Below are positions 23,834 to 40,919 of a DNA stretch of 64,000 nucleotides, piece by piece. The translations under genes and the position numbers were made by a program. The notes under the pieces were generated by a model. It did no database searches, had not been told where the DNA came from, and was given only the letters and a program-made list of their open reading frames with translations. This DNA is from Thermobaculum terrenum ATCC BAA-798 (GTDB taxonomy: Bacteria; Chloroflexota; Chloroflexia; Thermobaculales; Thermobaculaceae). Positions within the stretch are counted from its first letter, which is position 1. Every line of letters starts with the position of its first letter. The stretch lies in the NCBI RefSeq assembly GCF_000025005.1, contig NC_013525.1:124001-188000 (forward strand), written 5' to 3'.

Positions 23834-25153
23834 ATGCCAAAGATCACATTTATCGGAGCTGGGAGTACCGTCTTTGCCAAAAATCTCATAGGAGATATCC
23901 TCTCTTTTCCAGAGCTACAGGACTCAACTATATGTCTATTTGATATAGACCCAGATCGGCTCTCGACATCAGAGATAGTAGCTAACAAGATAAAGCAAGC
24001 CCTCAATGCACCTGCCAAGATAGAGGCTACTACTGATCGCAGGAAGGCACTGTATGGAGCTGACTATGCCCTATGCATGATCCAGGTGGCTGGATACAAG
24101 CCAGGAACAGTTATAGACTTCGAGATCCCCAAGAAGTACGGTCTAAGGCAGACCATAGCTGATACCTTAGGTATTGGCGGCATAATGAGGGCCCTCAGGA
24201 CCATACCTGTGCTCCTAGATATGTGCAAGGACATGGAGGAGCTATGTCCAGATGTGTACTTCCTTAACTATGTAAATCCCATGGCGATGAATTGCTGGGC
24301 GATAAGCCGTGCTAGCAAGATAAAGACTGTTGGCCTATGCCACAGCGTCCAGGGAACGGCATGGGAGCTATCGAAAGACATAGGAGTGCCCCTTGAAGAG
24401 ATCAACTTCGTGTGTGCCGGCATAAACCATATGGCGTTCTATCTTAAGTTCGAGAGGAACGGAGAAGATCTATATCCGCTAATAAGAAAGGTCATAGAAG
24501 AAGGAAGAGTACCGGAACATAATCGCGTGAGATATGACGTGTTCAAGAGATTTGGATACTTTGTGACGGAATCAAGCGAGCACTTCAGCGAATACGTTCC
24601 CTGGTATATAAAGAGAGACAGACCAGACCTAATAGAGAAATACAACATACCTCTCGACGAATATATAAGAAGATGCGAGGCACAAATCGCTGGCTGGGAA
24701 GAGCTACGCAAGCGTTACGAGAGCGATGAGCCCATACAAGTCGAAAGGACACACGAGTTCGCCTCTTACATCATACATAGCATAGAGACAGGTATTCCCA
24801 AACTGGATGAAAAGGGTAACACCCGTGTAATCTATGGTAACGTACCTAACAACGGCTTGATCGACAACCTTCCTCAGGGATGCTGCGTCGAAGTTCCATG
24901 CCTCGTAGATAGAAATGGCATCCAGCCAATCAAGATAGGTTCTCTGCCAATCCAGCTGGCAGCACTAATGCAGACCAACATCAATGTGCAAGCCCTCACT
25001 GTAGAGGCAGCACTAACCAGGAAGAAAGAGTATATCTATCAGGCGGCGATGCTCGACCCACATACTGCAGCTGAACTTGATCCGGATCAGATATATTCTC
25101 TGGTAGATGAACTCATAGCTGCCCATGGCGACTGGCTGCCAGAATATCACTAA
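23834..25153 (+). CDS. GH4 glycosidase (alpha-galactosidase-like)
   Basis: A 439-residue family GH4 enzyme, which hydrolyses glycosides by an NAD- and Mn-dependent oxidation-elimination mechanism. The NAD site [16 protein letters not shown] is at residues 6-21, [11 protein letters not shown] at 145-155, the metal ligand Cys169 in CHSV, and His199 in GINHM. In GH4 the CHSV tetrapeptide marks alpha-galactosidases, while phosphoglycosidases have CN(V/I)P or CDMP, so a non-phosphorylated alpha-galactoside or uronide is more likely. It opens a four-gene sugar unit with two PfkB kinases and a SIS isomerase, though a terminator-like palindrome separates it from the next gene. Confidence 0.92.
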
Positions 25154-25173
25154 TAAACTAGGATCACTTTTCT

Positions 25174-25199
25174 AAGGGGAAGGGGTACCCCTTCCCCTT
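25174..25199 (+). terminator. perfect 26-base palindrome after GH4 gene
   Basis: 13+13 base perfect palindrome with purine-rich left arm AAGGGGAAGGGGT and no loop or T-run. It may attenuate transcription from the GH4 gene into the kinase-isomerase-kinase genes rather than end it. Confidence 0.55.
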
Positions 25200-25219
25200 A
25201 TCTAAAGATAAAGACGATT

Positions 25220-26176
25220 ATGAAAGCTCTGACTGTAACACTTAATGCAGCCATAGATATAACTTATGCTCTGCCTTACCTACAGCCAGGCGAGTCATTG
25301 CGCGTACACGAGAAGATCTACTCCCCTGGTGGTAAAGGCAACAATGTGGCCAAGATCCTAAATATTCTTGGTGATGATGTAATAGCCACAGGATTTGTAG
25401 GGGGATATACGGGTCAGTTCATAGAAGAGTCTTTGCAATCTATAGGCATAGTGCCCAAGTTTGTAAAAACCAGAGATGCTTCCAGACTGTGCATAGCAGT
25501 AATCGAGGAAGCAAACGGCCGGGTATCAGAGCTGCTGGAGCCAGGAGCAAATATTACCAGGGACGAATCTGACAAGCTCTTAGAGCTGGTTAAGCAACTG
25601 GCAACAGAGGTGGATACAGTAGTATTCTCGGGTAGCTTGCCCAAGGGAGTTCCAGACGACTACTACAGGATCCTGTTATCACAGCTCAAGGGCTTGAATG
25701 TGCAGACGGTTCTAGATACCAGTGGAGAATCCCTACGGTTGGGTATAAGAGGGAAGCCTAACATCATAAAGCCCAATAGAAAAGAGATACAAGATCTGAT
25801 GGGTAGAGATGCCCCAGTAAAAGAGATAATAGCTTTCTGCAGGCAAGAATTGCTAGCTAAGTACCTATCCACAGATGCAATAGTATTGCTAACGCTAGGG
25901 AAGGACGGTGCCATATTGCTAACAAAAGAGCTTGTGCTGCAAGCAATACCTCCTGATATAAAGGTAGTAAACCCAGTCGGGGCAGGTGACGCACTGCTAG
26001 CAGGTTTTTTGCATGCTCAGTCTGTATGGAAAGACCCTGATCTGATGCTAAAGTATGCTGTAGCGGTAGGGACAGCCTCAGCTCTACAAAAGACCGCAGG
26101 AAGTGTAAACCCGCAAGATATAGACCTAATAATGTCTCAGGTAAATGTTAGAACACTTTTATTAGGAGCAGAATAA
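25220..26176 (+). CDS. PfkB-family sugar-phosphate kinase (1-phosphofructokinase/tagatose-6-phosphate kinase type)
   Basis: A 318-residue kinase of the FruK/LacC/PfkB subgroup. The N-terminal TLNAAIDITYAL, PGGKGNNVAKIL near residue 38 and NPVGAGDALLAGF with the catalytic Asp in the C-terminal third are diagnostic. Members phosphorylate fructose-1-phosphate, tagatose-6-phosphate or fructose-6-phosphate; the sequence does not separate these. Its stop is followed directly by the GTG of the SIS gene. With a GH4 alpha-galactosidase-like enzyme and a SIS isomerase nearby, a tagatose-type route is a fair guess. Confidence 0.88.
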   Translation: MKALTVTLNAAIDITYALPYLQPGESLRVHEKIYSPGGKGNNVAKILNILGDDVIATGFVGGYTGQFIEESLQSIGIVPKFVKTRDASRLCIAVIEEANGRVSELLEPGANITRDESDKLLELVKQLATEVDTVVFSGSLPKGVPDDYYRILLSQLKGLNVQTVLDTSGESLRLGIRGKPNIIKPNRKEIQDLMGRDAPVKEIIAFCRQELLAKYLSTDAIVLLTLGKDGAILLTKELVLQAIPPDIKVVNPVGAGDALLAGFLHAQSVWKDPDLMLKYAVAVGTASALQKTAGSVNPQDIDLIMSQVNVRTLLLGAE

Positions 26177-27241
26177 GTGTTAGAAACAAGCACAGCACAC
26201 TCTCATACCTATAACGAGATCACTAATCAGCCCGTCTCCTGGAAGACAACCGTTGACGCAATATCTTCACAATGGGCCGAGTTGCAGCCTCAGCTGACGA
26301 TAACCCCGGATACTCATTATGTATTCGTAGGATGTGGCACATCTCTGTATATAGCTCAGAGTGCAGCTCAGTGTTTTCAGGAGATAACTGGCTATACATC
26401 ATTAGCTGTGCCCGGCTCCGAAGTGTTCCTGTCCGCCAAATCTACTGTACCTTCCAGATATCCGGTAATAGCTTTCATAATCTCTCGTTCTGGTACAACC
26501 ACCGAAGCATTACTTGCGGCTGACTATCTGGCTGCTAACAGATCAAACGTAACTACAATTGGGATAACCTGCAACAGTGATACTGAGCTTACCAAGAGGA
26601 CTAGATTTAGCATTCAACTTCCTCATGCACACGAGGAATCAGTAGTTATGACTCAATCATTCACCTCGATGCTGATAGCTTTGCAGTACGTAGCTGCATC
26701 CCTAGCAGGAGATCAGATGGTCATAGACCAGATCTCCTCCTTGAGCACCTACCTACAGAGAGACATCAGGAGTTTTGAATCCAAAGCACAGGAGCTAGGG
26801 GAGAATTTAAACCTAGATCATTTTGTGTATCTAGGGCTCGGCCCCAACTATGGCCTCGCTCAGGAGGGCAACCTAAAGCTTAAGGAGATGACCCAGGTCC
26901 ACTGCGAGGCTTACAATCCGCTGGAGTTCAGGCATGGTCCAATATCAACAGTAAGAGAAGGCTCTGCAATAATCCTGCTTGCCGGCAACAGAGAAAGAGA
27001 TTACGTACCGTCATTAGTAACTGATCTTAAGGAAGTAGGTGCTTTCGTCGCATCTTGCTCTCCTTATCCCATCGATGGATCTGATATGCACCTGCTCGTG
27101 GGGAAGGAGCTAACAGATGTACCCAGATGTGCGCTCTACATGCCATTCCTGCAATACCTGGCTTACTACAGGGCAGTTTCATTGGGATTAAATCCAGATC
27201 AGCCGAGAAACCTTTCGCAGGTAGTAAAACTGGATGAATAG
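26177..27241 (+). CDS. double-SIS sugar isomerase (AgaS/GlmS-isomerase type)
   Basis: A 354-residue protein with two SIS domains, like the isomerase half of GlmS but without the glutamine amidotransferase domain. VGCGTSLYIAQSAAQCF and SRSGTTTEALLA form the first phosphosugar site, and EFRHGPISTVREG is the characteristic loop of the second. Relatives deaminate or isomerise amino-sugar phosphates (AgaS, FrlB). GTG start directly after the preceding stop, with AGGAG eight bases upstream; it overlaps the next gene by 8 bases. An amino-sugar or galactosamine-like substrate is possible. Confidence 0.88.
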   Translation: MLETSTAHSHTYNEITNQPVSWKTTVDAISSQWAELQPQLTITPDTHYVFVGCGTSLYIAQSAAQCFQEITGYTSLAVPGSEVFLSAKSTVPSRYPVIAFIISRSGTTTEALLAADYLAANRSNVTTIGITCNSDTELTKRTRFSIQLPHAHEESVVMTQSFTSMLIALQYVAASLAGDQMVIDQISSLSTYLQRDIRSFESKAQELGENLNLDHFVYLGLGPNYGLAQEGNLKLKEMTQVHCEAYNPLEFRHGPISTVREGSAIILLAGNRERDYVPSLVTDLKEVGAFVASCSPYPIDGSDMHLLVGKELTDVPRCALYMPFLQYLAYYRAVSLGLNPDQPRNLSQVVKLDE

Positions 27242-28214
27242 TAAGCTCTCAAGGCCATTAGCAATAGTTGGTAATCTGAACGTCGATCTTTGGGTAAGAA
27301 CGGTTAGCCGTTTCCCTAGATGGGACGAAGAGCTCGTAGTTGATTCCGCCCAAATGGTTCTTGCAGGTACCGCCGGCTATATCATGCTCGCGGCAAAGGG
27401 GCTAGGAATCCCTACATTTACCATATCTACCATAGGAAATGACGCATTTGGGCGTTTTCTATTAGAAGAGATGAAGAATCACGGGCTATCCTGCGAAGGT
27501 GTGATCGTAATGGAAGGGGAAGAAACTTCCCTAGGGATCATATTCGTCGGGGACAAAGGGCAGAGGGGAATACTATCCACACTGGGAGCCCACAGCAAGA
27601 TGGACCTAACCTTAGTTAGAAGTCGTGACTCTCTTATATCTTCTTGTGAAGAGATCTTCCTCTGTGGTAACTATCTGTTACCTCTGATGTCCCCTTCGCA
27701 CATTCAAGATTTCGCTAAGGAGTTGCAAGAGCGAGGACAAATTGTATTCTTTGATCCTAGCTGGGATCCTAGTGGGTGGACAGATGTTACAAGGAAAAGT
27801 ACTTACTCCCTCTTACAACACGTAGATGTTTATTTACCCAACCAGGAGGAACTCCTACACCTTACAGCTAAGAATAGTTTAGATGAGGCATTACAAGAAA
27901 TACGACCCAGGATCGCAGGCGAAGCCGTTATCAAGATGGGAGAAAGAGGAGCTCTATATATAAACAAGAGCGAAGAGATCTATTTTGAAGGCTTTAGAGT
28001 TGAAGCTGTAAACACGGTGGGGGCAGGGGATGTTTTTGATCTAGGATACTTGTATGCTCGAAGGTGTGGTTGGCCGCCTTACCAAAGGTTACAGTTCGCG
28101 TGCGCTCTTGCCGCAATGGTCATATCACAACATAGAGACCGCCAATACCCGAAGCTATCAGAGGTGCTCAACTTTCTTCAAAAGAAAACTCATGATAACT
28201 TCTGGGACTTTTAG
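27234..28214 (+). CDS. PfkB-family carbohydrate kinase
   Basis: A 326-residue ribokinase-like kinase. It has VGNLNVDLWV at the N-terminus, GTAGYIMLAAKGLG in the sugar lid region, and NTVGAGDVFDLGYLYA with the catalytic Asp near residue 270. It differs from the first PfkB protein of the unit, so the two probably act on different intermediates, or one on the free sugar and one on the phosphate. The substrate is unknown. It is last in the unit, with the convergent HIT gene six bases away. Confidence 0.87.
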   Translation: MNSKLSRPLAIVGNLNVDLWVRTVSRFPRWDEELVVDSAQMVLAGTAGYIMLAAKGLGIPTFTISTIGNDAFGRFLLEEMKNHGLSCEGVIVMEGEETSLGIIFVGDKGQRGILSTLGAHSKMDLTLVRSRDSLISSCEEIFLCGNYLLPLMSPSHIQDFAKELQERGQIVFFDPSWDPSGWTDVTRKSTYSLLQHVDVYLPNQEELLHLTAKNSLDEALQEIRPRIAGEAVIKMGERGALYINKSEEIYFEGFRVEAVNTVGAGDVFDLGYLYARRCGWPPYQRLQFACALAAMVISQHRDRQYPKLSEVLNFLQKKTHDNFWDF

Positions 28215-29036: not shown

Positions 29037-30203
29037 ATGGGGATGGAACAAGACTACTTTCGAGAGGTGGCAAATACCGTAGTCAAAAAGATTGGTAGTC
29101 TGCTAGATCAACAAGTTATAGTGGCAGATGATCGGGGCTGGGTAATAGCTAGTACGGACAGAAGATTTATGGGGAAGAATCTCGATACTAGTCCCAGCCG
29201 CCGTATGCTTCACCAACTTAGAGTGCCGATAAAAATAAGAGATAAGTGCGGGCAGTTGATGATTATCGAGTCCAACAAGCCTTCTGTGCCTCCAAGGATG
29301 GCGGAGGCTCTCGTGGAGATGGTGATCAATCAGATAATGCTGGTTGAAAGCCTTCCAAACCAATCCGATCTGAAGAACAAGCTGATATATGATCTTCTGC
29401 ATGGTAATTCTAGCGATGAGACCTCAATAATCAGGCAGGCTCAAATCTTGGGAATGGACTTAAACTTGCCACGAGCTGTGCTGCTGATAGATGCTTCCAA
29501 ATACATCCTGGGGGGAGATGATAGACAATTACAGCAAAAGGTGAACACTATAATAAGGAGCATTGTAGACTTCTTTATGTTGCCCTCGGATACGATATGC
29601 GGCTATATAGGCGAGGGGGAAGTCGTAGTGCTCAAAGCCAGTAGCTCAAGGGACCTTGCCAACTGGTTGCGACCGAAAGAGAAACTAGATACTAGTCCTT
29701 CTTCATGGGCAAATTTGGCGGCCTTAAAGAGGGCGGCTAACGCATTATTGTCTAAGTTACGATCTGAGACAAAGCAACCCATTACTATAGGGATCGGAAG
29801 ATACCATCCTGGTATACTGGGGCTCACTGCTTCCTATCAGGATGCTCGCGCAGCGCTCTCGCTTGGGCTTAAGTTCTATGGTCCTAACAAGGTCCACTGT
29901 CTGGACAGCCTTGGCATACCAGCATTTGTCGGCATATCAGATGAACGCACAAAGAATGATTTGGCTACACATCTACTTAAGCCTCTTGAGAAATACCCAG
30001 AGCTGATGCAAACTCTCGAGGTATTCTTTGATGAGAATTGTTGTCCCACAAGTGCATCTAAAAAACTCTGCATACACAGAAATACCTTAACTTATCGCCT
30101 CGATAAGATAGCCTCCTTGACAGGGCTTGACCCTCGTGACTTTGATAGCGCTGTCCAGCTGAGGCTTGCACTCACCCTCAAGGCTTCCAGCAGAAACGAA
30201 TAG
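29037..30203 (+). CDS. PucR/CdaR-type transcriptional regulator
   Basis: A 388-residue regulator of the sugar-diacid CdaR/PucR group. The N-terminal domain (residues about 1-110) contains QQVIVADDRGWVIAS, a putative diacid-recognition sensor. A middle GGDEF-like region follows, and the C-terminal helix-turn-helix lies within ASKKLCIHRNTLTYRLDKI near residues 341-359. Such regulators usually activate uptake or use of sugar acids, glycerate or purines. An ATG at 29043 is equally possible. It lies just upstream of the heptose cluster, and may control it or the adjacent sugar unit. Confidence 0.88.
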   Translation: MGMEQDYFREVANTVVKKIGSLLDQQVIVADDRGWVIASTDRRFMGKNLDTSPSRRMLHQLRVPIKIRDKCGQLMIIESNKPSVPPRMAEALVEMVINQIMLVESLPNQSDLKNKLIYDLLHGNSSDETSIIRQAQILGMDLNLPRAVLLIDASKYILGGDDRQLQQKVNTIIRSIVDFFMLPSDTICGYIGEGEVVVLKASSSRDLANWLRPKEKLDTSPSSWANLAALKRAANALLSKLRSETKQPITIGIGRYHPGILGLTASYQDARAALSLGLKFYGPNKVHCLDSLGIPAFVGISDERTKNDLATHLLKPLEKYPELMQTLEVFFDENCCPTSASKKLCIHRNTLTYRLDKIASLTGLDPRDFDSAVQLRLALTLKASSRNE

Positions 30204-30316: not shown

Positions 30317-30913
30317 ATGACCATAAGTATCAATAACTTACTCCAGAAAAGACAGGAAAAACTAAATGTGGCCATAAACCAGCTCATTAGAGATTCAGAG
30401 TTGCTAGAGAGCGTGGCCAACACACTAATCCAAAGCTTGTGTTCGAATAAGAAGATCCTGATATGTGGGAATGGTGGAAGCGCCGCGCAAGCACAGCACA
30501 TGGCAGGAGAGCTGATCGGGCGTTTCAAGAAGAACAGGGCTCCTATAGCAGCCTTAGCCTTGGGCACTGATATGGCTACGACTACGGCTATAGCTAATGA
30601 CTTTGGATATGAAGAAGTATTCCTGCGACAGGTCGATGCTTTAGGCAATGATGGAGATGTGCTGTTGATCCTTAGCACCAGTGGAAATTCGCCTAATGTG
30701 CTTGCAGCTGTTAATACGGCCCGCAGGAAAGGGCTCAAAACAGTGGCATTTACAGGCAAGAAGCCTAGCAAGGTAGAGGATCTGGCAGACATTGTAGTAC
30801 GCTTCCCAGCCGAAGAGACAGACGTCATACAGGAACTACACTTACTAGCCATACACATTCTATGCGAGGTTGTAGAAGAGCACTTATCCAAAGAGGTGGT
30901 TGATGGGCAATAA
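30317..30913 (+). CDS. gmhA: phosphoheptose isomerase, copy 1
   Basis: A 198-residue single-SIS enzyme converting sedoheptulose-7-phosphate to D-glycero-D-manno-heptose-7-phosphate. GNGGSAAQAQHMAGELIGRF near residue 52 and STSGNSPNVLAA near 118 form the phosphate and sugar site, and the helix with ELHLLAIH supplies catalytic and zinc-site residues. It is the first gene of the heptose cluster and overlaps gmhB by 11 bases. A second gmhA-like gene closes the cluster. Confidence 0.92.
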   Translation: MTISINNLLQKRQEKLNVAINQLIRDSELLESVANTLIQSLCSNKKILICGNGGSAAQAQHMAGELIGRFKKNRAPIAALALGTDMATTTAIANDFGYEEVFLRQVDALGNDGDVLLILSTSGNSPNVLAAVNTARRKGLKTVAFTGKKPSKVEDLADIVVRFPAEETDVIQELHLLAIHILCEVVEEHLSKEVVDGQ

Positions 30914-31517
30914 AGCAGTATTTCTAGACCGTGATGGCACGCTAGTACATCCAAGACATTATCCTTCCAGAGCAGAGGACCTAGTACTCTACCGAGGCTT
31001 GCCGGAAGAGATGCGAATCCTACAGCAAATGGGATTCAAACTAGTTGTAATCACCAACCAAGGAGGCATAGCTCATGGCTACTTCACGGAGCGGGACCTA
31101 GAACTCATGCACACTAGCCTCCAAGATCAGCTCTCTGAGTTTGGAGTGCGTATAGATGCTTTCTACTACTGTCCGCACCATCCAGAGGGAAACTTAGCCC
31201 ATCTGGCTTGTGAATGCGAATGCAGGAAACCAAAACCAGGAATGATATTGCAGGCCGCCAAAGATATGAATTTGGACCTGTCGTCGTCATGGATGGTAGG
31301 CGACATACTCAACGATGTAGAGGCGGGCAGAAAAGCTGGCTGCAAGACTATCTTGGTAGACCTCGGTACTGAGTCTAAGCCTAGCAGTCCGGATAGAACT
31401 CCTGATTATGTCGCAAGAACCACAAAGCATGCCCTCCAGATCATCCAAAGCCTGGAGGGGCAAAGAAAAGACGTCGATCTTGACTACATTCCTTCTTCCT
31501 GGAAGGCAGCTGTGTAG
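30903..31517 (+). CDS. gmhB: D-glycero-D-manno-heptose-1,7-bisphosphate 7-phosphatase
   Basis: A 204-residue HAD-superfamily phosphatase. The nucleophile motif FLDRDGTL is near residue 7 and TNQGGIAHGYF near 50. The zinc site CPHHPEGNLAHLACECECRKP is the specific GmhB feature, and GDILNDVEAG gives the C-terminal acid motif. It removes the C7 phosphate from the heptose bisphosphate made by HldE-type or HddA-type kinases. The ATG at 30903 follows GAGGTGG and overlaps gmhA. Confidence 0.93.
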   Translation: MGNKAVFLDRDGTLVHPRHYPSRAEDLVLYRGLPEEMRILQQMGFKLVVITNQGGIAHGYFTERDLELMHTSLQDQLSEFGVRIDAFYYCPHHPEGNLAHLACECECRKPKPGMILQAAKDMNLDLSSSWMVGDILNDVEAGRKAGCKTILVDLGTESKPSSPDRTPDYVARTTKHALQIIQSLEGQRKDVDLDYIPSSWKAAV

Positions 31518-31544
31518 CCCGAGAGTCCAGCAAGGAGCTCCAAG

Positions 31545-33032
31545 ATGCTGAAAGTAGACATTGTAAACAACTTCCATAAAGTTAGGGCGCTGGTAATTGG
31601 AGACGCGATGCTCGACAGCTACCTAGAGGGCACAGCAAGCAGGCTATGTTCCGAGGGCCCAGTGCCGGTAGTAACTAAAAGTGGAGAGGAAAGGGTCCCT
31701 GGGGGAGCTGCCAATACTGCTTCAAACCTCAGAGCTCTTGGAGCGCAGGTTATGTTTCTAGGATTTGTGGGCAGAGACGCAAATGCTGCCTACCTCAGGA
31801 CTGCCCTTAGAAGATACGACATCGACGATGGGTGGCTGGTAGAGGACCCTAATATTTCCACCATACACAAGATGAGGATATTAGCAGACGAGCAGTACGT
31901 GGTCAGGTTCGACGAGGGCGACACGACCAATTACTCGAAATCCTCCAGGGAGGAGCTACTATACAAGTTGGAGCAAGCACTAACGAAGTGCGACGTAATT
32001 GTAGTATCAGACTACAGCTATGGAGCTGTATCTGAAGATGTAACATCAGTAATAAAGGACTTTCGCAGGACCCAAGATATACCCCTCCTGGTCGATTCCA
32101 AGAACATTATTTCATACGGCAAGGCTAGCGCGACCTTGATAACGCCCAACCATCATGAAGCTCGAGCTGCTGTTGGTCGACCAGCAAGTATCAAGCCTCC
32201 TGATATTGAGGAAATGATGGGTATAGGCAAACAACTCCTTGACTGCATGGATTGTCAATTTATAGCCATCACAATGGCCAGCGAGGGAGTACTACTGTTG
32301 GGGCAAAAAGCCGAACCTCTCCATATACCGGCCTACCCTATTCCCAAAGCCAGCGTTGCTGGTGCAGGGGATTCTTTCCTGGCAGCAACAGCTTTGTCGC
32401 TTGCTGTAGGGGCTGATATTGCAGAGGCTACTCGCATAGGGGTCGAGAACGCTAGGCTGGCTGTGCTCAAGCGGAGGACTGCCGTAGTAGAACATAGAGA
32501 ACTCCTCCTTAGGATGAGCACTCTAGATAGACAAAGCGACCAGCCATATGAATCTCTTATCGCAGAGCTGGAGGCAGCACGTAGAGAAGGCAAAGTCATA
32601 GTTATGGTCAATGGGGTTTTCGACCTGCTCCACGCTGGACATGTAAACCTGCTTAGGAAAGCCAAAGAGCTTGGTGATCTATTGGTAGTAGCCATCAACT
32701 CCGATAAAAGCGCTCGCAGACTCAAAGGTCCTAACAGGCCAATAAACGATGAAAGACACCGGCTGGAGCTTGTAGCTTCGCTAGAGCCAGTAGACCATGT
32801 AGTGCTCTTCGACGAGGACACCCCTATACAACTGATCAAGACGATTAGGCCTCATGTGCTTGTCAAAGGGGCGGACTACGAGGGACAGGAGATTCCAGAA
32901 GCTCCAATACTTCAGGATATAGGTACTAAGCTTGTTTTAGTTCCTCTCACGGAAAATTACAGTACATCCAGCTTGATAGAAAGAATCCTCAGTTCTGCTC
33001 CCAATCAACAACTAACAAGCGAGGTCATGTAG
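31545..33032 (+). CDS. hldE: bifunctional heptose-7-phosphate kinase / heptose-1-phosphate adenylyltransferase
   Basis: A 495-residue fusion enzyme. The N-terminal ribokinase-like domain (about 1-325) has VIGDAMLDSYLEG, VPGGAANTASNLRALG and VAGAGDSFLAATA. The C-terminal nucleotidyltransferase domain (about 350-490) has the HxGH-type NGVFDLLHAGHVNLL and the NSDKSARRLKG loop. It makes ADP-D-glycero-beta-D-manno-heptose together with GmhA and GmhB. The epimerase HldD that gives ADP-L-glycero-heptose is not in the window. The three following GT9 genes are the obvious users. Confidence 0.95.
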   Translation: MLKVDIVNNFHKVRALVIGDAMLDSYLEGTASRLCSEGPVPVVTKSGEERVPGGAANTASNLRALGAQVMFLGFVGRDANAAYLRTALRRYDIDDGWLVEDPNISTIHKMRILADEQYVVRFDEGDTTNYSKSSREELLYKLEQALTKCDVIVVSDYSYGAVSEDVTSVIKDFRRTQDIPLLVDSKNIISYGKASATLITPNHHEARAAVGRPASIKPPDIEEMMGIGKQLLDCMDCQFIAITMASEGVLLLGQKAEPLHIPAYPIPKASVAGAGDSFLAATALSLAVGADIAEATRIGVENARLAVLKRRTAVVEHRELLLRMSTLDRQSDQPYESLIAELEAARREGKVIVMVNGVFDLLHAGHVNLLRKAKELGDLLVVAINSDKSARRLKGPNRPINDERHRLELVASLEPVDHVVLFDEDTPIQLIKTIRPHVLVKGADYEGQEIPEAPILQDIGTKLVLVPLTENYSTSSLIERILSSAPNQQLTSEVM

Positions 33033-33034
33033 AC

Positions 33035-34120
33035 GTGAGTATAGATTGGCTTCAAGCCAAGAGAATACTAATCGTGAGGCTGGATAACCTTGGAGATGTG
33101 GTCCTGGCCACTCCTGCGATAAGAGCGATCAAGGAAACTTTACCTGAATGTCAAATTACTCTCCTGGCCAGCCCAGTAGGAGCACAGGTAGCCGAAGTCA
33201 ACCCAGATATAGATTCCGTGATCATCTATAGCGCACCATGGATGGACCCCTGGCAGAGACTACCTCAAGACAGTGCACGAGAGATGAAGATAATAGAGCA
33301 GATAAGAAACCACAAGTTCGATGGAGCGATAATCTTCACCTCTTATCATCAAAGCCCTTTGCCTGCTGCCTACTTGTGCTACCTGGCAGATGTACCCCTC
33401 AGGCTCGGATCCACTAGCGACGGGGCAGGGTCCCTGCTCACTACCAGGCATAAGCCACCAACAACGCTTATACACGAGGTGGAGAGAGGACTCGAGCTTG
33501 TATCAGCCGTAGGATTTTCGGGCACCCAAGATGATCTGGTAATAGAAGTTCCCTCTGCATTTAGACGTGCAGTCCGTGGATGGCTTGAAGATATGTCGAT
33601 AAAGTCTCCAGAATCACCACTCGTAGTGATTCATCCAGGCTGCAGTATGCCTGCACGCACGTACCCATGGCAGTCCTATGCGCAAGTAGCTGATCTCATC
33701 AAGATTGAGATGGGAGCAGAAGTTGTCTTTACTGGAGCAGAAACAGAGCTGGACTTGCTTACACATATCAAGAGCCGCATGGCAACAGAACCTAAGCTCT
33801 TCTATGGCAGAAGTCTGCCTGAACTTTGTGCATTGATCGAACATGCAGATCTGGTCATTACCAACAATACTGGACCGATGCACTTAGCAGCGGCTCTAAA
33901 GACACCTGTAGTAGCCCTATTCGCATTGACCAACCCTCCAGAGCAGTGGCGTCCTTGGAAAGTTCCTCATAAGCTTCTATTCCACGAGGTTGACTGTCGC
34001 ATCTGCTACTCTCGCATATGTCCCTTTGAGCATGAGTGTCTCGCCCCGGTGTCGCCTCAAGAAGTACTACAGGCTTCGATAGATCTGCTACAAGGGTCAG
34101 CCCAAAGGAGGATCGCATGA
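33035..34120 (+). CDS. GT9 family glycosyltransferase (heptosyltransferase-like), copy 1
   Basis: A 361-residue GT-B fold transferase of family 9, the ADP-heptose:LPS heptosyltransferase family. RLDNLGDVVLATPAIRAIK is the N-terminal signature and NNTGPMHLAAALKTPVVALF the nucleotide-sugar site. Four cysteines near the C-terminus (CRICYSRICPFEHECL) recur in the next gene. GTG start two bases after hldE, with GAGGT upstream; its stop overlaps the next start as ATGA. The acceptor is unknown, and a lipid A core is unlikely if the organism lacks an outer membrane. Confidence 0.9.
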   Translation: MSIDWLQAKRILIVRLDNLGDVVLATPAIRAIKETLPECQITLLASPVGAQVAEVNPDIDSVIIYSAPWMDPWQRLPQDSAREMKIIEQIRNHKFDGAIIFTSYHQSPLPAAYLCYLADVPLRLGSTSDGAGSLLTTRHKPPTTLIHEVERGLELVSAVGFSGTQDDLVIEVPSAFRRAVRGWLEDMSIKSPESPLVVIHPGCSMPARTYPWQSYAQVADLIKIEMGAEVVFTGAETELDLLTHIKSRMATEPKLFYGRSLPELCALIEHADLVITNNTGPMHLAAALKTPVVALFALTNPPEQWRPWKVPHKLLFHEVDCRICYSRICPFEHECLAPVSPQEVLQASIDLLQGSAQRRIA

Positions 34121-35163
34121 GCAAGTGGCTAAATGTCAAAAACCTCCTAGCTGTTCGATTGGATAACATAGGCGACGTCGTAATGACGGGACCAGCGCTA
34201 CGTGCGATAAAAGAAAACCTGCCCGAGACGAAGATCACCATGCTGCTCTCTCCCGGAGGAGCTAGTGCCGCCCCATTACTACCTTGGATCGATGAAGTTA
34301 TAGCGTGGAAATCTCTTTGGCAAGATCTAGGAGATCTGCCTTTTGATCCCGCTAGAGAGCTTGAATTAGTAGAAAAGCTTCGAGAACATGCCTTCGATGG
34401 AGCGATAATCTTCACCTCCTTCAGCCAGGATCCGCATGTTCCTGGTTATGTTTGCTACCTGGCTGGAATCCCACTGCGTGCAGGTGAATCCAAGGAATTC
34501 GGAGGGAGCGTGCTCACACATGAACTAAAGAGCGTCCCCGACAACGTCCATCAAGTCGAGAGAAATCTCAGGCTAATAGAGTCTCTAGGGTTCAAAGTAA
34601 GAGATCGCAGTCTAAAGATATTCATCGATGAAGAAGCATCTCTATCTGCCCATGAAAAGCTAGGATCAATGGGCATCAGAGTCGATGAAGGGTATGTGGT
34701 TATCCATCCTGGTGCAAGTGCAAGTGCTCGCAGATATCCCGTGGACAGATTCGCCGTGATAGCTCAGGAACTAACCAGGAAAGGCATACATGTGGTTGTA
34801 ACTGGTAGTGATAGGGAGCGTCTTTTGGTAGAGGAGATCGCAAATGCCGCACCGGAAGTCAAAACCCTGGTAGGGGTCACCTCACTATCTGAATATGCAG
34901 CAGTATTGAAGATGGCTAAGGCCGTGATATGCAATAACACCCTCCCGATGCATCTCTCAGATGCGCTAAGAGTGCCAGTTGTAGTTCTTTTCTCAGGCAC
35001 AGATGAGGAGAGTGCCTGGGGACCAAGAGATACCAGAGCCCTACTAATGAGGAAGCCTACTCCTTGCCACCCCTGTTATCTATTCAAATGCCCTATAGGC
35101 CAGCCCTGCTTAGACATACCAGCTCACGAGGTCTCCAAGGCCGTATTGAGGATCATCTCGTAA
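34117..35163 (+). CDS. GT9 family glycosyltransferase, copy 2
   Basis: A 348-residue GT9 transferase closely related to the preceding gene. It shares RLDNIGDVVMTGPALRAIKEN, the FDGAIIFTSF segment, NNTLPMHLSDALRVPVVVLF and the C-terminal four-cysteine motif CHPCYLFKCPIGQPCL. I set the start at the ATG at 34117 with AGGAGG five bases upstream; the frame is open further upstream but that part overlaps copy 1. The pair looks like a tandem duplication. Confidence 0.9.
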   Translation: MSKWLNVKNLLAVRLDNIGDVVMTGPALRAIKENLPETKITMLLSPGGASAAPLLPWIDEVIAWKSLWQDLGDLPFDPARELELVEKLREHAFDGAIIFTSFSQDPHVPGYVCYLAGIPLRAGESKEFGGSVLTHELKSVPDNVHQVERNLRLIESLGFKVRDRSLKIFIDEEASLSAHEKLGSMGIRVDEGYVVIHPGASASARRYPVDRFAVIAQELTRKGIHVVVTGSDRERLLVEEIANAAPEVKTLVGVTSLSEYAAVLKMAKAVICNNTLPMHLSDALRVPVVVLFSGTDEESAWGPRDTRALLMRKPTPCHPCYLFKCPIGQPCLDIPAHEVSKAVLRIIS

Positions 35164-35181
35164 TTCAAAACGGAGATCAAC

Positions 35182-36240
35182 ATGAATCATCCAGTTGCAC
35201 TCGACAACATAGAGAAAATAGCGATATTCAGAGCGTTGTTTCTAGGCGATCTGTTCTTTACTTTACCTGCATTCCGAGCACTAAGGGAGAGGTTCCCAAA
35301 CGCTGAAATAACCCTTATAGGATTGCCCTGGGCAAAAGAGTTCGTATCTAGATTCAGACATTATCTGGACCGGTTCCTCGAGTTCCCAGGATATCCAGGC
35401 ATCATTGAGGTGGATGTTAATCCCACCAGAACTCAAGAATTTCTTATACAGGCCAGAGACTACGGCTACGACCTGGCTATCCAGATGCAAGGCAATGGAA
35501 CAACCAGCAACGGTTTCGTTGCCGAATTAGGTGCCAGAATAAGCCTAGGACATGCCGTCAATGGAGACGACAGACTGACGATAAGTATCCCTTTTACCGA
35601 GAGACCAATCAAAAATGAGATATTGCGATGGCTAGATCTCGTAAGCCTGCTAGGTGCACACAGCACGCCAGACCTGGAGTTCCCTATATATCCACACGAA
35701 AGAGCTCGAGCCGAAGAGCTAATCCGGCCCGCCCTGTATAACAACGGTCCCATAGTCGGCATGCACATGGGTGCTAAAGAAGACATCAGGAGGTGGCCGG
35801 CACAGAGGTTTGGAGAGTTGGCAAAGATCCTAGTCAAGCTTTTTGATGCCACCATAGTACTTACTGGAACTTCCCAGGAAATAGGGCTTTCAAAGGAAGT
35901 AGAAGCAGCTGTTGGAAGCAACGTAGTCAATCTTATAGGCAAAACAGATTTAGGGACTTTCGCAGCGGTAGTATCCTCGATGGATCTTCTAGTTACCAAC
36001 GACACAGGAGCCTCACATATAGCAGCAGCCACTAGCACACCCAGCGTAGTCCTATTTGGGCCCACCACACCTGAGCAATTCGGGCCCATAAACCAGGATC
36101 TACATAAGGCAGTGAAAGCTTATGAGCACGTGCAATCCTACAGTGGTAGTCCTCTATGGGAGCTACCGGTTGAACCAGTGCTGGATGCATGTATCTACAT
36201 GCTCCAGAACTACTACGTAAAACCATCTACAGCATTTTGA
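35182..36240 (+). CDS. GT9 family glycosyltransferase, copy 3
   Basis: A 352-residue GT9 protein, more distant from copies 1 and 2. It has IFRALFLGDLFFTLPAFRALRE at the N-terminus and VTNDTGASHIAAATSTPSVVLFGPT in the C-terminal nucleotide-sugar site, and lacks the four-cysteine motif. GGAG lies six bases before the ATG. Three GT9 proteins in a row suggest sequential addition of heptose or related sugars to one glycan. Confidence 0.88.
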   Translation: MNHPVALDNIEKIAIFRALFLGDLFFTLPAFRALRERFPNAEITLIGLPWAKEFVSRFRHYLDRFLEFPGYPGIIEVDVNPTRTQEFLIQARDYGYDLAIQMQGNGTTSNGFVAELGARISLGHAVNGDDRLTISIPFTERPIKNEILRWLDLVSLLGAHSTPDLEFPIYPHERARAEELIRPALYNNGPIVGMHMGAKEDIRRWPAQRFGELAKILVKLFDATIVLTGTSQEIGLSKEVEAAVGSNVVNLIGKTDLGTFAAVVSSMDLLVTNDTGASHIAAATSTPSVVLFGPTTPEQFGPINQDLHKAVKAYEHVQSYSGSPLWELPVEPVLDACIYMLQNYYVKPSTAF

Positions 36241-36253
36241 GGTGTTTCTAGCG

Positions 36254-37198
36254 ATGCGTAGATACAAAATACTTTGTTGGCACATACATGGTAGCTATCT
36301 GGACGCTTTGGCACAAATAGACCAAGATTGGTACCTTCCAGTAACACCTGACAGAGGTGAAGGCTATGGTGGTAGACGTCCAGGAATGCCTCCATATGTA
36401 CGCGAGGTACCAGCAGAAGAAGTTAGGAACCTGGACTTGGACATAATAATATGCCAGACTCCCAAAAACTTTTACGAAGATATCCCTGCGATACTTAGCC
36501 CCGAACAACAAAAGTTACCTAAGATCTACCTAGAACACAACTGTCCGCGCCAGCATCCCACTGATACGAAGCATCCCATAGACGACCCTAATGTCCTTTT
36601 GGTACATGTAACCCACTTCAACAACCTTATGTGGGATAGCGGTAGAACGCCCACTATGGTTATTGAGCACAGCGTGGCTATCGACCCCTCCATAGAGTAT
36701 GTTGGCGACCGAGATAAAGGTATAACCGTAATCAACGAGATGAAACGCCGTGGACGTATCTCGGGCTACGACATCTTCTGCAAGGCTCGTGAAAGCGTTC
36801 CTTTGGACACTTGTGGCATAAAGAGCGAGGAGATAGGCGGACTAGGGGACATCAAGTACCGAGATCTGCATCGCTTGATGGCAAGATATCGCTTTCTGTT
36901 CAGTCCCATGAGGTACACCAGCTTGCCACTGGCGGTAATAGAAGCCATGACCATAGGTATGCCTGTGATAGCACTGGCCACCACGGAACTACCTACTATG
37001 ATACAGAACGACTACAACGGCTACGTATCTTGTGACGTCGAGTTCCTTATAGACAGAATGCTATTCCTTTTGAACAATCCCAAAGAGGCAAAAAGACTGG
37101 GGCAGAATGCAAAGTGCACTGCACAGGAGAGATTCAACTTAGATAGGTTCAGGAGGGATTGGAATAAAGCCTTCGATCTGGTAGCTGGAGGTCTATGA
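36254..37198 (+). CDS. glycosyltransferase, GT4-like
   Basis: A 314-residue GT-B type protein. The C-terminal half has SPMRYTSLPLAVIEAMTIGMPVIALATTELP, the nucleotide-sugar binding and conserved Glu region of group 1 transferases, followed by a GYVSCDVEFLIDRMLFLLNNP helix region. The N-terminal half, with HIHGSYLDALAQI and YGGRRPGMPPYV, is less typical. I chose the ATG at 36254, with AGGTG upstream; a GTG at 36242 is also in frame. It couples to the next transferase through ATGA. Donor and acceptor are unknown. Confidence 0.8.
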   Translation: MRRYKILCWHIHGSYLDALAQIDQDWYLPVTPDRGEGYGGRRPGMPPYVREVPAEEVRNLDLDIIICQTPKNFYEDIPAILSPEQQKLPKIYLEHNCPRQHPTDTKHPIDDPNVLLVHVTHFNNLMWDSGRTPTMVIEHSVAIDPSIEYVGDRDKGITVINEMKRRGRISGYDIFCKARESVPLDTCGIKSEEIGGLGDIKYRDLHRLMARYRFLFSPMRYTSLPLAVIEAMTIGMPVIALATTELPTMIQNDYNGYVSCDVEFLIDRMLFLLNNPKEAKRLGQNAKCTAQERFNLDRFRRDWNKAFDLVAGGL

Positions 37199-38502
37199 TG
37201 CACTTAGCTGAGCGACCAAAGGTTGCATTTATCAGTGAGCACGCAAGTCCAGCGGCCCTCCTTGGAGGTGTAGATGCAGGTGGGCAAAACGTGTACGTGG
37301 ATGAAATAAGTCGTAATCTAGGAGCAATGGGCATCAGTGTAGATATCTTTACTCGTCTGGACTCTCCAGAATCTCCAGGGGTGCGGAACTGGAGTAAAGG
37401 CGTAAGAATTATAAACGTGCCAGCGGGACCAAAACAGCACGTATTCAGAGACGATCTATGGACTCTTATGCCAGAGTTCACCCGAAACATGCTGGATTTT
37501 ATCAAGCGCAATAACATTCGATATGACCTAATTCATAGTAACTTCTGGATGTCTGGCTGGGCAGCTACCAAGCTGAAACATCGGGCTAACATCCCAATGA
37601 TCCATATATTTCACGCTATGGGTAAGACTAAGCGCAAACACCAGGGAGATATGGACACTAGTCCTACAGAGAGGATTACTATCGAGCAACTCGTAGCTTC
37701 GGAGGCGGACTACCTGATAGCCCAGTGCCCCAGCGAAAAGCTGGAACTAACCGAAGATTATGGAGTGGATCCTGCAAAGGTAGTAATAATCCCTTCAGCA
37801 GTCAACATAGAGAGGTTCCGCCCAATAGGTAAAGAAGCTGCGAGAACACTCATAGGACTAGATTGGCGAGGCCCTGTAATTGGGTATGTGGGACGCATCA
37901 TACCCAGGAAGGATGTTAGAAACATCGTACTGGCACTTCATAAGGTCATCACAAACAAACCAGATCTCAATCCATTGCTAATGTTAGTAGGTGGCGAGAC
38001 TAGAGAGCCCGACCCTAAGGCAACCCCTGAGATCGGAGTTCTCCAATCTATGATCTTGGAGCTGGGGTTGCAGGATAGGGTTATATTCATAGGCAAGAGA
38101 CAACCTGATGAGCTCTATGCCTACTATTCAGCCGCTGACTTAATAGTTACAACTCCTTGGTATGAGCCATTTGGATTAACACCACTTGAGGCTATGGCCT
38201 GCGGTAGGCCGGTAATAGGCTCTAATGTGGGAGGAATAGCTTTTACCGTATCAGATGGTGAGACTGGCTATCTTGTGCCTCCTAAGTCACCGGAGACGCT
38301 TGCCGCTCGCATCATAGAGCTCCTCGATAAAGATGATCTCAGGGAACGTATGGGCTCTAACGCCAGACATCGGGTGGTGAAGTTGTTTACCTGGGAAAGA
38401 GCAGCGGAGCTGACGGCCCAGTTGTACGTAAAAGCACTAAGCAAGAAACTTCACATCGCGAACACGGACTACAGAAAGGAGTCAGATTATGAATACAGAT
38501 AG
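37195..38502 (+). CDS. GT4 family glycosyltransferase
   Basis: A 435-residue retaining glycosyltransferase of family 4. The N-terminal GGVDAGGQNVYVDEISRNL resembles sucrose-phosphate-synthase or MshA-like enzymes. VIIPSAVNIERFRP and GYVGRIIPRKDVRNI open the second domain, and PWYEPFGLTPLEAMACGRPVIG is the EX7E donor site. The start overlaps the preceding stop as ATGA, and the 3' end overlaps the SDR gene by 14 bases. The donor sugar is unknown. Confidence 0.9.
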   Translation: MMHLAERPKVAFISEHASPAALLGGVDAGGQNVYVDEISRNLGAMGISVDIFTRLDSPESPGVRNWSKGVRIINVPAGPKQHVFRDDLWTLMPEFTRNMLDFIKRNNIRYDLIHSNFWMSGWAATKLKHRANIPMIHIFHAMGKTKRKHQGDMDTSPTERITIEQLVASEADYLIAQCPSEKLELTEDYGVDPAKVVIIPSAVNIERFRPIGKEAARTLIGLDWRGPVIGYVGRIIPRKDVRNIVLALHKVITNKPDLNPLLMLVGGETREPDPKATPEIGVLQSMILELGLQDRVIFIGKRQPDELYAYYSAADLIVTTPWYEPFGLTPLEAMACGRPVIGSNVGGIAFTVSDGETGYLVPPKSPETLAARIIELLDKDDLRERMGSNARHRVVKLFTWERAAELTAQLYVKALSKKLHIANTDYRKESDYEYR

Positions 38503-39232
38503 AACTCATATCCGCACGGTTATTATTACAGGAGCTGGAAGCGGCCTAGGTGAAGCCACAGCCTGCACCTTTGCTCAAGATGGGTTCAACGTTGCATGCC
38601 TAGATATCAATGAGCAAGCAGCTCAAAACGTCGCCAACAGACTGAATGAGAATGGAGCAAAGGCCATTGCTATCCGATGTGATGTATCAAAAGAAGATGA
38701 CGTATTCAGTGCAGTCCAAAAAACTTTCGATACCTTCCAGAGGATAGATGTTGTGGTCAACTGTGCAGCTGTGGACCATACACTCTCTGTCAGCGACATG
38801 ACTATAGCACAATGGGACCAGGTCATATCAGTGAACCTTAGGGGTCCTTTTTTGATAGCTAAGGCAGTGCTCCCAATTATGAAGAGTCAAAAATACGGAC
38901 ACATCGTCAACATAGCATCTACTGCAGCCACCAGGGCTTGGGCAAACGCCGCCGCTTATCATGCATCCAAATGGGGACTCAGAGGTTTCAGCAGAGCTCT
39001 AGGCGTAGAGGGACGTCCAGACAACATAAGGGTTACGAACGTTATTCCAGGAGGCATGAAGACTCACTTCTTCGATAGATTCGTTGAGCAAGGAATCCCT
39101 ATGCCAGATCCTGCCAACCTGCAGGACCCAGCAAATGTGGCCAAAGTCATACTCTTTGCGGTCAACATGCCTGAAGAGTCCTGCATGCAAGAGGTCATAG
39201 TTACACCACTTACCGAGACAAGCTGGCCCTAA
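38489..39232 (+). CDS. short-chain dehydrogenase/reductase
   Basis: A 247-residue classical SDR. The NAD(P) motif TGAGSGLGEA is near residue 14, NCAAV near 90, the catalytic Ser in NIASTAATRA, and YHASK carries the catalytic Tyr and Lys. It is FabG-like and too short to be the extended-SDR epimerase HldD. AGGAG lies seven bases before the ATG. Its place between glycosyltransferases and a heptose kinase suggests a sugar oxidoreductase acting on a nucleotide- or phospho-sugar, but this is inference. Confidence 0.88.
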   Translation: MNTDRTHIRTVIITGAGSGLGEATACTFAQDGFNVACLDINEQAAQNVANRLNENGAKAIAIRCDVSKEDDVFSAVQKTFDTFQRIDVVVNCAAVDHTLSVSDMTIAQWDQVISVNLRGPFLIAKAVLPIMKSQKYGHIVNIASTAATRAWANAAAYHASKWGLRGFSRALGVEGRPDNIRVTNVIPGGMKTHFFDRFVEQGIPMPDPANLQDPANVAKVILFAVNMPEESCMQEVIVTPLTETSWP

Positions 39233-39261
39233 TCCTTATAGCTTACGAGACCTTAGGTTTT

Positions 39262-40305
39262 ATGCAAGAGACTATATTTTCAAGAGCACCATTTAGAATA
39301 AGCTTTGCTGGCGGAGGTACAGATCTACCGGAATACTACGAAAAGTACGAAGGGGTCGTACTTAGCACTGCCATTGACAAGTATTGCTACACGATCCTGC
39401 GACAAAGCTTGGATGACAGCTTCCACTTGAAGTCTGCTATCGATGGGATAGTGTGGGAGTGTTTCCAAGGCATACCTAAAATATACACTGAAGATAGGCT
39501 GGCCATACAGAAGTCAGCCATTGCAACGTGCTACGAAGGCAAGCAAGCATTAGATATCTTCACAACCTCTGAGATACCTAGTGGCACTGGGCTGGGATCT
39601 TCAAGCGCACTGGCCGTATCCGTGCTGCAAGCGCTACTTACATCATCCAATGTGCCCTACAGTAAGTATGATTTAGCCGAAGCAGCATGTAGACTTGAGA
39701 TCGATGTGCTTAGATCCCCTATAGGCAAGCAGGACCAGTATGCATCGGCCTTTGGGGGACTAAATCTTATCTGGTTCTATAGGAATGAGACTCTGGTTGA
39801 GCCCATGCAAATAGCCCCTGAAAGGCTACGTTTGCTCGAAGATAATCTTCTCCTGTTCTATGTCGGAGGTACACGTAAAGCCTCTGAGATTCTAAGAGAG
39901 CAGAAACAAGCGACGCAATCAAACATGCAGACGCTAGACCACCTGCACCAGTTAAAACAATTGGCTCTAGATATGGCAAATAGCCTGCGTAGAGGCCAAA
40001 TGAACGAATTTGGTTCAATGTTGCACCATGCATGGGAGCTTAAGAAGGGCTTATCTGACAAGATCTCTAACCCACACATAGATGAGATCTATCAGCTCAC
40101 ACTCAAACTAGGAGCTCTGGGAGGAAAGCTAGCAGGGGCTGGTGGTGCTGGCTTCCTAATGCTCTACGTGCCGCAGACTAGCCAACCCAAGATAAAGGAC
40201 AAACTAGAAGCCTTCGGCGTTCGCGAGATGCCCTTTAGTTTCGACTTCGAAGGAGCTTGCTTACTTAAGTCAGGCTGGTTCATCGTAAGGAGCAATCAAA
40301 GATGA
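39262..40305 (+). CDS. hddA: GHMP kinase, D-glycero-alpha-D-manno-heptose-7-phosphate kinase-like
   Basis: A 347-residue GHMP kinase. RAPFRISFAGGGTDLPEYY at the N-terminus is the hallmark of HddA and related fucokinase-like enzymes, SGTGLGSSSALAVSVLQAL is the ATP loop near residue 111, and KLAGAGGAGFLMLYV is the C-terminal GHMP motif. HddA phosphorylates the alpha anomeric position of heptose-7-phosphate on the way to GDP-heptose. The guanylyltransferase HddC is not present. It overlaps the second gmhA as ATGA. L-fucose or a related sugar kinase role cannot be excluded. Confidence 0.85.
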   Translation: MQETIFSRAPFRISFAGGGTDLPEYYEKYEGVVLSTAIDKYCYTILRQSLDDSFHLKSAIDGIVWECFQGIPKIYTEDRLAIQKSAIATCYEGKQALDIFTTSEIPSGTGLGSSSALAVSVLQALLTSSNVPYSKYDLAEAACRLEIDVLRSPIGKQDQYASAFGGLNLIWFYRNETLVEPMQIAPERLRLLEDNLLLFYVGGTRKASEILREQKQATQSNMQTLDHLHQLKQLALDMANSLRRGQMNEFGSMLHHAWELKKGLSDKISNPHIDEIYQLTLKLGALGGKLAGAGGAGFLMLYVPQTSQPKIKDKLEAFGVREMPFSFDFEGACLLKSGWFIVRSNQR

Positions 40306-40919
40306 TTGATACGATCAAGGATTACTGGAACGGTATAACTGGATCAATACGAAAAGTTGATCTCAAGGCTATCGAAGCAGCGGCCTGGGAGATAATCTCA
40401 TGTCATAACAGCGGCAACAACATATACATCGTAGGTAATGGCGGGAGCGCTGCTACGGCTTCGCACTTTGCATGTGACCTGTCCAAAGGAGCAAGAGTTC
40501 CAGGACAAACTCCTTTCAGAGTATTATCACTTACAGATAATATGTCCTTGGTTACTGCCTGGGCTAATGATTCGTCCTTTGAACACGTATTTGCTGAACA
40601 ATTAAGACCAATGATCAGGCAAGGGGATCTATTGATAGTTATCAGCGCAAGCGGCAATTCTCCTAACGTAGTCTTTGCTGCCCAGGTAGCAAGGGATTTG
40701 GGAGCAAGGGTATTAGGACTTACAGGCAAAGATGGGGGCAAGCTGCGGAACATAGCAAATCTGACAATTACAGTGCCTACCGAGCATATTGAGCAGGTGG
40801 AAGATGCACATCTAGTCATGGCTCATTGTATATGCTTCTCAATTAGGGAATATCTTACTAACAAAACTATCAAAATAGAGGATAGCGCTTTGCAACAGGT
40901 ATTTCAGGCCAACATCTGA
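40302..40919 (+). CDS. gmhA: phosphoheptose isomerase-like SIS protein, copy 2
   Basis: A 205-residue single-SIS protein with GNGGSAATASHFACDLSKG near residue 46 and SASGNSPNVVFAAQVA near 110, and the EDAHLVMAHC helix. It is clearly different from copy 1 and resembles the GmhA partner of HddA in GDP-heptose loci. It ends the cluster; its stop codon lies inside a short palindrome, TGATCCCCGGGATCA. Confidence 0.88.
   Translation: MIDTIKDYWNGITGSIRKVDLKAIEAAAWEIISCHNSGNNIYIVGNGGSAATASHFACDLSKGARVPGQTPFRVLSLTDNMSLVTAWANDSSFEHVFAEQLRPMIRQGDLLIVISASGNSPNVVFAAQVARDLGARVLGLTGKDGGKLRNIANLTITVPTEHIEQVEDAHLVMAHCICFSIREYLTNKTIKIEDSALQQVFQANI

Follow-up and report, generated by a model that had tools for sequence, protein, structure and literature searches.

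A predicted LPS-independent heptose glycoside gene cluster in Thermobaculum terrenum has relatives in several bacterial phyla

Introduction

The E. coli pathway for the LPS inner core comprises GmhA, HldE, GmhB and HldD, together with WaaC/WaaF. GDP-heptose systems, including that of the kinase WcbL in the B. pseudomallei capsule and those of Gram-positive S-layer glycans, pair an HddA-like kinase with a neighbouring GmhA-family protein. Heptose nucleotides also have uses outside of LPS. Streptomyces septacidin and related natural product clusters, cited in PMC10948575 and PMC11573728, use ADP-heptose. The individual enzyme families considered here, and non-LPS uses of ADP-heptose such as septacidin and protein heptosylation, are already known. 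Across kingdoms, STTR5 NDP-heptose synthases belong to the nucleotidyltransferase family of HldE, and the arginine of the STTR5 motif has been tied to CDP/UDP promiscuity (Tang et al. 2024, as reported in PMC11461863). Commentary on this cross-kingdom work notes that heptoses may serve their producers in more roles than are known (PMC11573728), and ADP-heptose in general is a potent immune signal in animals (PMC11461863).

Thermobaculum terrenum is a Gram-positive thermophile and soil bacterium. Strain YNP1 has thick murein and stains Gram-positive, and a biochemical search for LPS detected none (PMC3035366). Here, we analyze a gene cluster within a 64,000-nucleotide window of its genome (NC_013525.1, positions 124,001 to 188,000). 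The cluster shares the GmhA, HldE and GmhB families and GT9 proteins with the LPS inner core pathway, whereas T. terrenum has no HldD, lipid A genes or Omp85, and two GT4 proteins and a short-chain oxidoreductase (SDR) stand in place of the LPS core genes. As in GDP-heptose systems, an HddA-like kinase lies beside a GmhA-family protein (GmhA2), but HddC is missing, the GmhA2 site is altered, and the cluster carries no export genes. Like the septacidin-type clusters, it belongs to an LPS-free bacterium and would put ADP-heptose into a non-LPS product; in contrast to them, it has several GT9 and GT4 genes and the SDR, and no nucleoside antibiotic genes were seen in it. With respect to the STTR5 synthases, HldE in the window carries the motif ENYSTSS and lacks the arginine, whereas a separate HldC of T. 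terrenum shares STTR. In the open-access literature searched, we found no published account of a cluster of such composition. PMC3966863, on expression in Burkholderia thailandensis, was considered as a prior description and set aside, since the passages retrieved from it deal with other genes.

Results

Organization of the cluster

The cluster occupies positions 30317-40919 of the window, with all genes on the + strand and many of them overlapping or only a few bases apart. At its 5′ end lie the predicted sedoheptulose 7-phosphate isomerase gene gmhA1 (30317-30913; TIGR00441, 195.6 bits, cut-off 209.5) and the predicted heptose 1,7-bisphosphate 7-phosphatase gene gmhB (30903-31517), which begins with the ATG at 30903, or possibly with a TTG at 30900, and whose product passes TIGR00213 (155.4 bits, cut-off 149.6). 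The third gene, hldE (31545-33032), would encode a bifunctional heptose 7-phosphate kinase/heptose 1-phosphate adenylyltransferase. It scores 383.8 bits over its full length against NF008454 (cut-off 521), and its second domain passes TIGR02199 (184.6 bits, cut-off 181.5).

Three GT9 genes follow: GT9 a (33035-34120; PF01075, 103.9 bits; TIGR02195, 107 bits; GDV and TGPMH motifs), GT9 b (34117-35163; TIGR02195, 105 bits), for which ATG 34117 is the likely start although the longest ORF opens at 34036, and GT9 c (35182-36240; PF01075, 105.1 bits). The three proteins score 86-107 bits against TIGR02195, all under its cut-off of 134.6 bits. The family is named for heptosyltransferases, and heptose as the donor here is a prediction from that kinship. 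Next come the GT-B glycosyltransferase GT4a (36242-37198; Pfam Glycos_transf_1), the MshA-like glycosyltransferase GT4b (37195-38502; TIGR03449, 307 bits, under the cut-off of 462.5) and a classical SDR oxidoreductase (38489-39232; PF00106) with the motifs TGAGSGLG and YHASK and a terminal SWP. The last two genes encode an HddA-like GHMP sugar kinase (39262-40305; NF049969, 204.6 bits, cut-off 600) and GmhA2, a divergent SIS-domain protein (40302-40919; TIGR00441, 121 bits). Upstream of gmhA1 lies a gene for a PucR/CdaR-type transcriptional regulator (29037-30203, + strand) with HTH_30 and GGDEF-like domains (PF13556, PF17853), which probably regulates the cluster.

An earlier note, made from the sequence alone, had listed most of these genes. 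Family scans recovered every gene that it named at 30317-40919 on the + strand, and added the SDR and the regulator, both of which it had overlooked. The second of its "two GmhA" proteins proved to be a paralogue that has diverged and whose active site is altered.

A predicted pathway to ADP-heptose without HldD

Catalytic motifs are intact in GmhA1, GmhB, HldE and the SDR. GmhA1 has all of its metal-site residues (H61, E65, Q172 and H180); in the numbering of B. pseudomallei GmhA, it keeps H64, E68, Q175 and H183 and has Q at position 61. GmhB contains DxDGT and the zinc loop CxH...CxC, and HldE contains the GAGD and HAGH motifs. Because several members of the cluster score under curated equivalog cut-offs, family membership is firm while exact substrates are predicted; for GmhA1 and full-length HldE, which are among these, the substrate could differ. 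As far as sequence can tell, GmhA, GmhB and HldE are a complete gene set for ADP-heptose synthesis.

The T. terrenum genome comprises 3,101,581 bp on two chromosomes (2,026,947 and 1,074,634 bases). In a genome-wide search for HldD, the top match reached 122 bits, whereas the cut-off, which two of the control genomes pass, is 274.6. The possibility that HldD is concealed among the 28 epimerase-family genes of T. terrenum was rejected, as none of the 28 exceeds the cut-off. Family-model searches of the whole genome gave no match to LpxC and none to Omp85, and on these grounds LPS encoded elsewhere in the genome was rejected. For HddC, the top genome-wide match reaches 60 bits, where the cut-off is 300; this negative is weaker than that for HldD, because none of 14 control genomes passes the HddC cut-off either. 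These results agree with the earlier view of T. terrenum as an LPS-free bacterium, as do the murein, staining and biochemical data cited above. That view could have been overturned by hldD or lpx genes elsewhere, and the search for them returned none above cut-off. A complete ADP-heptose pathway that lacks HldD points to a D-glycero heptose, as the same note had reasoned.

HldD is likewise absent above cut-off from all 301 Chloroflexota genomes searched, and LpxC passes in one of them. That lone LpxC (G181:C28:3673-4476) comes from a draft genome that is 86% complete, and it is possibly a contamination.

T. terrenum also has a second, split HldA/HldC pair far from the cluster (L065:9552-11055, in the C1:1517569 region), of which the separate HldC reads EGFSTTR, with the STTR5 motif. 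A gene near this pair is, as we take it by eye, WecG/TagA-like. Stand-alone HldC proteins like that of the split pair are common in Chloroflexota.

Conservation of the cluster across phyla

We compared 20 stretches from T. terrenum and other Chloroflexota genomes and saw a core of GmhA, GmhB, HldE, one to three GT9, GT4a, GT4b and the SDR in most of them. GT4a, with relatives in several phyla, is the most conserved marker of the cluster, and its alignment was used for locus searches. Of the 301 Chloroflexota genomes, 35 encode it; a fused HldE was listed for 26 genomes, and 24 of these have GT4a as well (Fisher p 6.5e-25, a value that is indicative only, as the genomes are related). The model of GT4a (mean pLDDT 88.6) is a GT-B protein whose fold is nearest to those of TarM, BshA, PimB' and MshA, at 11-18% identity. 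The predicted fold fits a retaining glycosyltransferase but leaves the choice of donor undecided.

A scan of GTDB species yielded at least 580 confirmed GT4a relatives. The best 80 of these at least 580 loci, many of them cut by contig ends, come from Chloroflexota, Thermomicrobiales, Cyanobacteriota, Bacteroidota, Acidobacteriota, Actinomycetota, Patescibacteria and proteobacterial bins. Among these best 80, the SDR is found in 62 loci, GT4b in 62, HldE in 54, GmhB in 46, GT2 in 43, GmhA in 38, the kinase in 14, GmhA2 in 12 and a carbamoyltransferase in 7, and a homologue of the regulator adjoins the cluster in 24. The kinase and GmhA2 lie downstream of the SDR, and this pair is accessory to the cluster. 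Gene order is conserved among the Chloroflexota loci and among loci of several phyla within the same best 80. In all 16 cyanobacterial loci of this set, and in some from Chloroflexota, GT4b is fused to a GmhA domain, which ties GT4b directly to the heptose pathway. The GT2 homologue of T. terrenum lies outside of the cluster (C1:495546, 42% identity). In the GT4a tree, Cyanobacteriota form one clade, whereas Chloroflexota and Bacteroidota are split; transfer inferences from this tree are unsafe because of the bins and paralogues.

Homologous clusters also occur in the LPS-bearing Burkholderia and Paraburkholderia, where those retrieved lack HldE, as would be expected if the LPS pathway supplies the ADP-heptose. 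The Streptomyces linear plasmid p65_CHABEC (L166) carries a complete GmhA/GmhB/HldE/GT9/GT4 cluster. A carbamoyltransferase accompanies the clusters of B. multivorans, Paraburkholderia and this plasmid, which is predicted to be mobilizable and has stress and regulator genes flanking its cluster. Stress-associated neighbours (DUF892, BON, DUF4142, CsbD and manganese catalase) accompany the clusters of Burkholderia, Paraburkholderia and Streptomyces and those at a few further loci; the T. terrenum cluster has no such neighbours.

The SDR has a characteristic C-terminus. All 72 complete copies end in E-x-S-W-P, a count in which some loci appear twice, and the B. multivorans homologue ends with the same tail. 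A plasmid search with the SDR at 1e-50 returned nothing, even though a direct check found that homologue. Full conservation of the tail across phyla suggests that the SDR may have one common substrate. Among proteins of solved structure, those closest to the SDR are hydroxyacyl or ketone oxidoreductases.

GmhA2 and the HddA-like kinase

The active site of B. pseudomallei GmhA consists of D61, H64, E68, Q175 and H183; replacement of D61 by alanine leaves 6% activity, and the Q175E variant was crystallised holding unreacted substrate (PMC5705639). By comparison with this reference, GmhA2 has replaced three of the five catalytic or metal-site residues, those at the canonical positions D(E/Q)61, E68 and Q175. 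It reads T61/H64/D68/E175/H183, and the 14 related rows that group with GmhA2 all agree; about 12 of these are independent, as two loci are counted twice. Given these substitutions and the effects of the B. pseudomallei mutations, it is unlikely that GmhA2 serves as another sedoheptulose isomerase of the ordinary kind. The kinase has as its nearest solved relatives PDB 3k85 (183 bits) and B. pseudomallei WcbL (4usk/4usm, 178-181 bits). A ManC-like guanylyltransferase is encoded elsewhere in the genome (L072).

No export genes in the cluster

Capsule and S-layer glycan clusters usually carry a flippase, a polymerase or an ABC exporter. We examined 68 homologous loci that each retain four or more cluster genes. 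Inside these clusters, no ORF has three or more predicted membrane spans, and hence there is no Wzx/Wzy or ABC exporter among them. Spans were predicted by a crude hydropathy count, which does recognise the ABC permeases of the window. With no multi-spanning membrane protein in the clusters, no dedicated route of S-layer or capsule export is encoded there, but export could instead depend on genes located elsewhere. The earlier proposal of a D-glycero heptose in a surface glycan, S-layer glycan or polysaccharide stands as to the sugar, and its surface placement is weakly supported.

Discussion

On balance, we think it probable that this locus is the Thermobaculum copy of a widespread, LPS-independent cluster for a heptose glycoside or glycolipid assembled in the cytoplasm. 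What we observed is the gene content, its conserved order, the lack of HldD, HddC, LpxC and Omp85 by family models, the lack of membrane proteins in the clusters, the altered GmhA2 site and the SDR tail; the enzyme activities, the product and its cell location are all inferred. With HldD absent, the heptose would remain in the D,D form and would be transferred by one to three GT9 enzymes. GT4a, GT4b and GT2 (in T. terrenum, the homologue outside of the cluster) would add other sugars, and the SDR may oxidise or reduce a hydroxyl or keto group of the product or donor. As a lineage-specific addition, the kinase and GmhA2 would activate a different sugar phosphate. Built in the cytoplasm, the product would be a soluble oligosaccharide or a glycolipid.

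How far should the family names be trusted? The heptose-family enzymes might all work on a different sugar phosphate, such that no heptose is made. GmhA1, full-length HldE, all three GT9 proteins and the HddA-like kinase score below cut-off, which would be compatible with this. It nevertheless seems unlikely: isomerase, kinase, phosphatase and nucleotidyltransferase are all present and retain their metal and catalytic motifs, GT9 genes co-occur with them, and GmhB and the second HldE domain exceed their cut-offs. It is extremely improbable that the cluster is a functionless remnant, left by a diderm ancestor, of an LPS inner-core pathway: its ORFs are intact, its order and catalytic motifs are conserved in many lineages, its transferases are not WaaC/WaaF equivalogs, and it is also found in LPS-bearing bacteria, even if its enzyme families are those of the inner core and Chloroflexota, one genome of 301 aside, are without LpxC.

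Other alternatives concern the route to the sugar nucleotide. The earlier note had proposed two heptose-nucleotide routes side by side, and both an ADP-beta and a GDP-alpha route might be complete and supply a surface, S-layer or capsule glycan. The kinase does resemble the heptose kinases 3k85 and WcbL, and the ManC-like guanylyltransferase might replace HddC. Nonetheless, we regard this as quite improbable. HddC is absent above cut-off genome-wide and GmhA2 is altered at D61, E68 and Q175, whereas the GmhA partner of WcbL in B. pseudomallei keeps the canonical set, so a GDP-heptose route is not supported; moreover, most loci are without the kinase/GmhA2 pair (kinase in 14 and GmhA2 in 12 of the best 80 of at least 580), and the clusters hold no exporter or flippase. 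The idea that the conserved SDR stands in for HldD, epimerising C6'' to give an L-glycero heptose, draws on its place in the core, its intact active-site motifs and the lack of any HldD above cut-off in 301 Chloroflexota genomes. This too is highly doubtful, since the SDR is of the classical rather than the extended type, its closest solved relatives act on hydroxyacyl or ketone substrates, and a homologue with the same tail is kept in the B. multivorans cluster. Burkholderia makes LPS and is expected to have its own HldD.

Returning to the cytoplasmic heptose glycoside that we favour, such a product is possibly linked to stress. More tentatively, and with less conviction, we suggest that the clusters define a class of cytoplasmic, sometimes carbamoylated D-glycero-D-manno-heptose oligosaccharides or glycolipids, made in several phyla with or without LPS for use under stress (heat, drying, stationary phase), with GT4a and the SWP-tailed SDR as signature genes. 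In practical terms, GT4a and this SDR are diagnostic genes for locating the cluster, and the cluster itself points to a specific use of ADP-heptose, independent of LPS, for which culturable bacteria offer a test. It also follows that finding GmhA and HldE in a genome is not evidence of LPS, and that the label 'lipopolysaccharide heptosyltransferase' is misleading for the GT9 proteins of the cluster.

Finally, two other features of the window may be mentioned. A sugar catabolism operon adjoins the heptose cluster upstream (23834-28214, + strand) and encodes a GH4 glycosidase, two PfkB kinases and an AgaS-like SIS protein. At 912-2336 (+ strand), a protein beginning MEYFRYRGIIEGFYGKPWEHQERL resembles, by eye, the T. 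terrenum GH84 O-GlcNAc hydrolase (PMC4683255).
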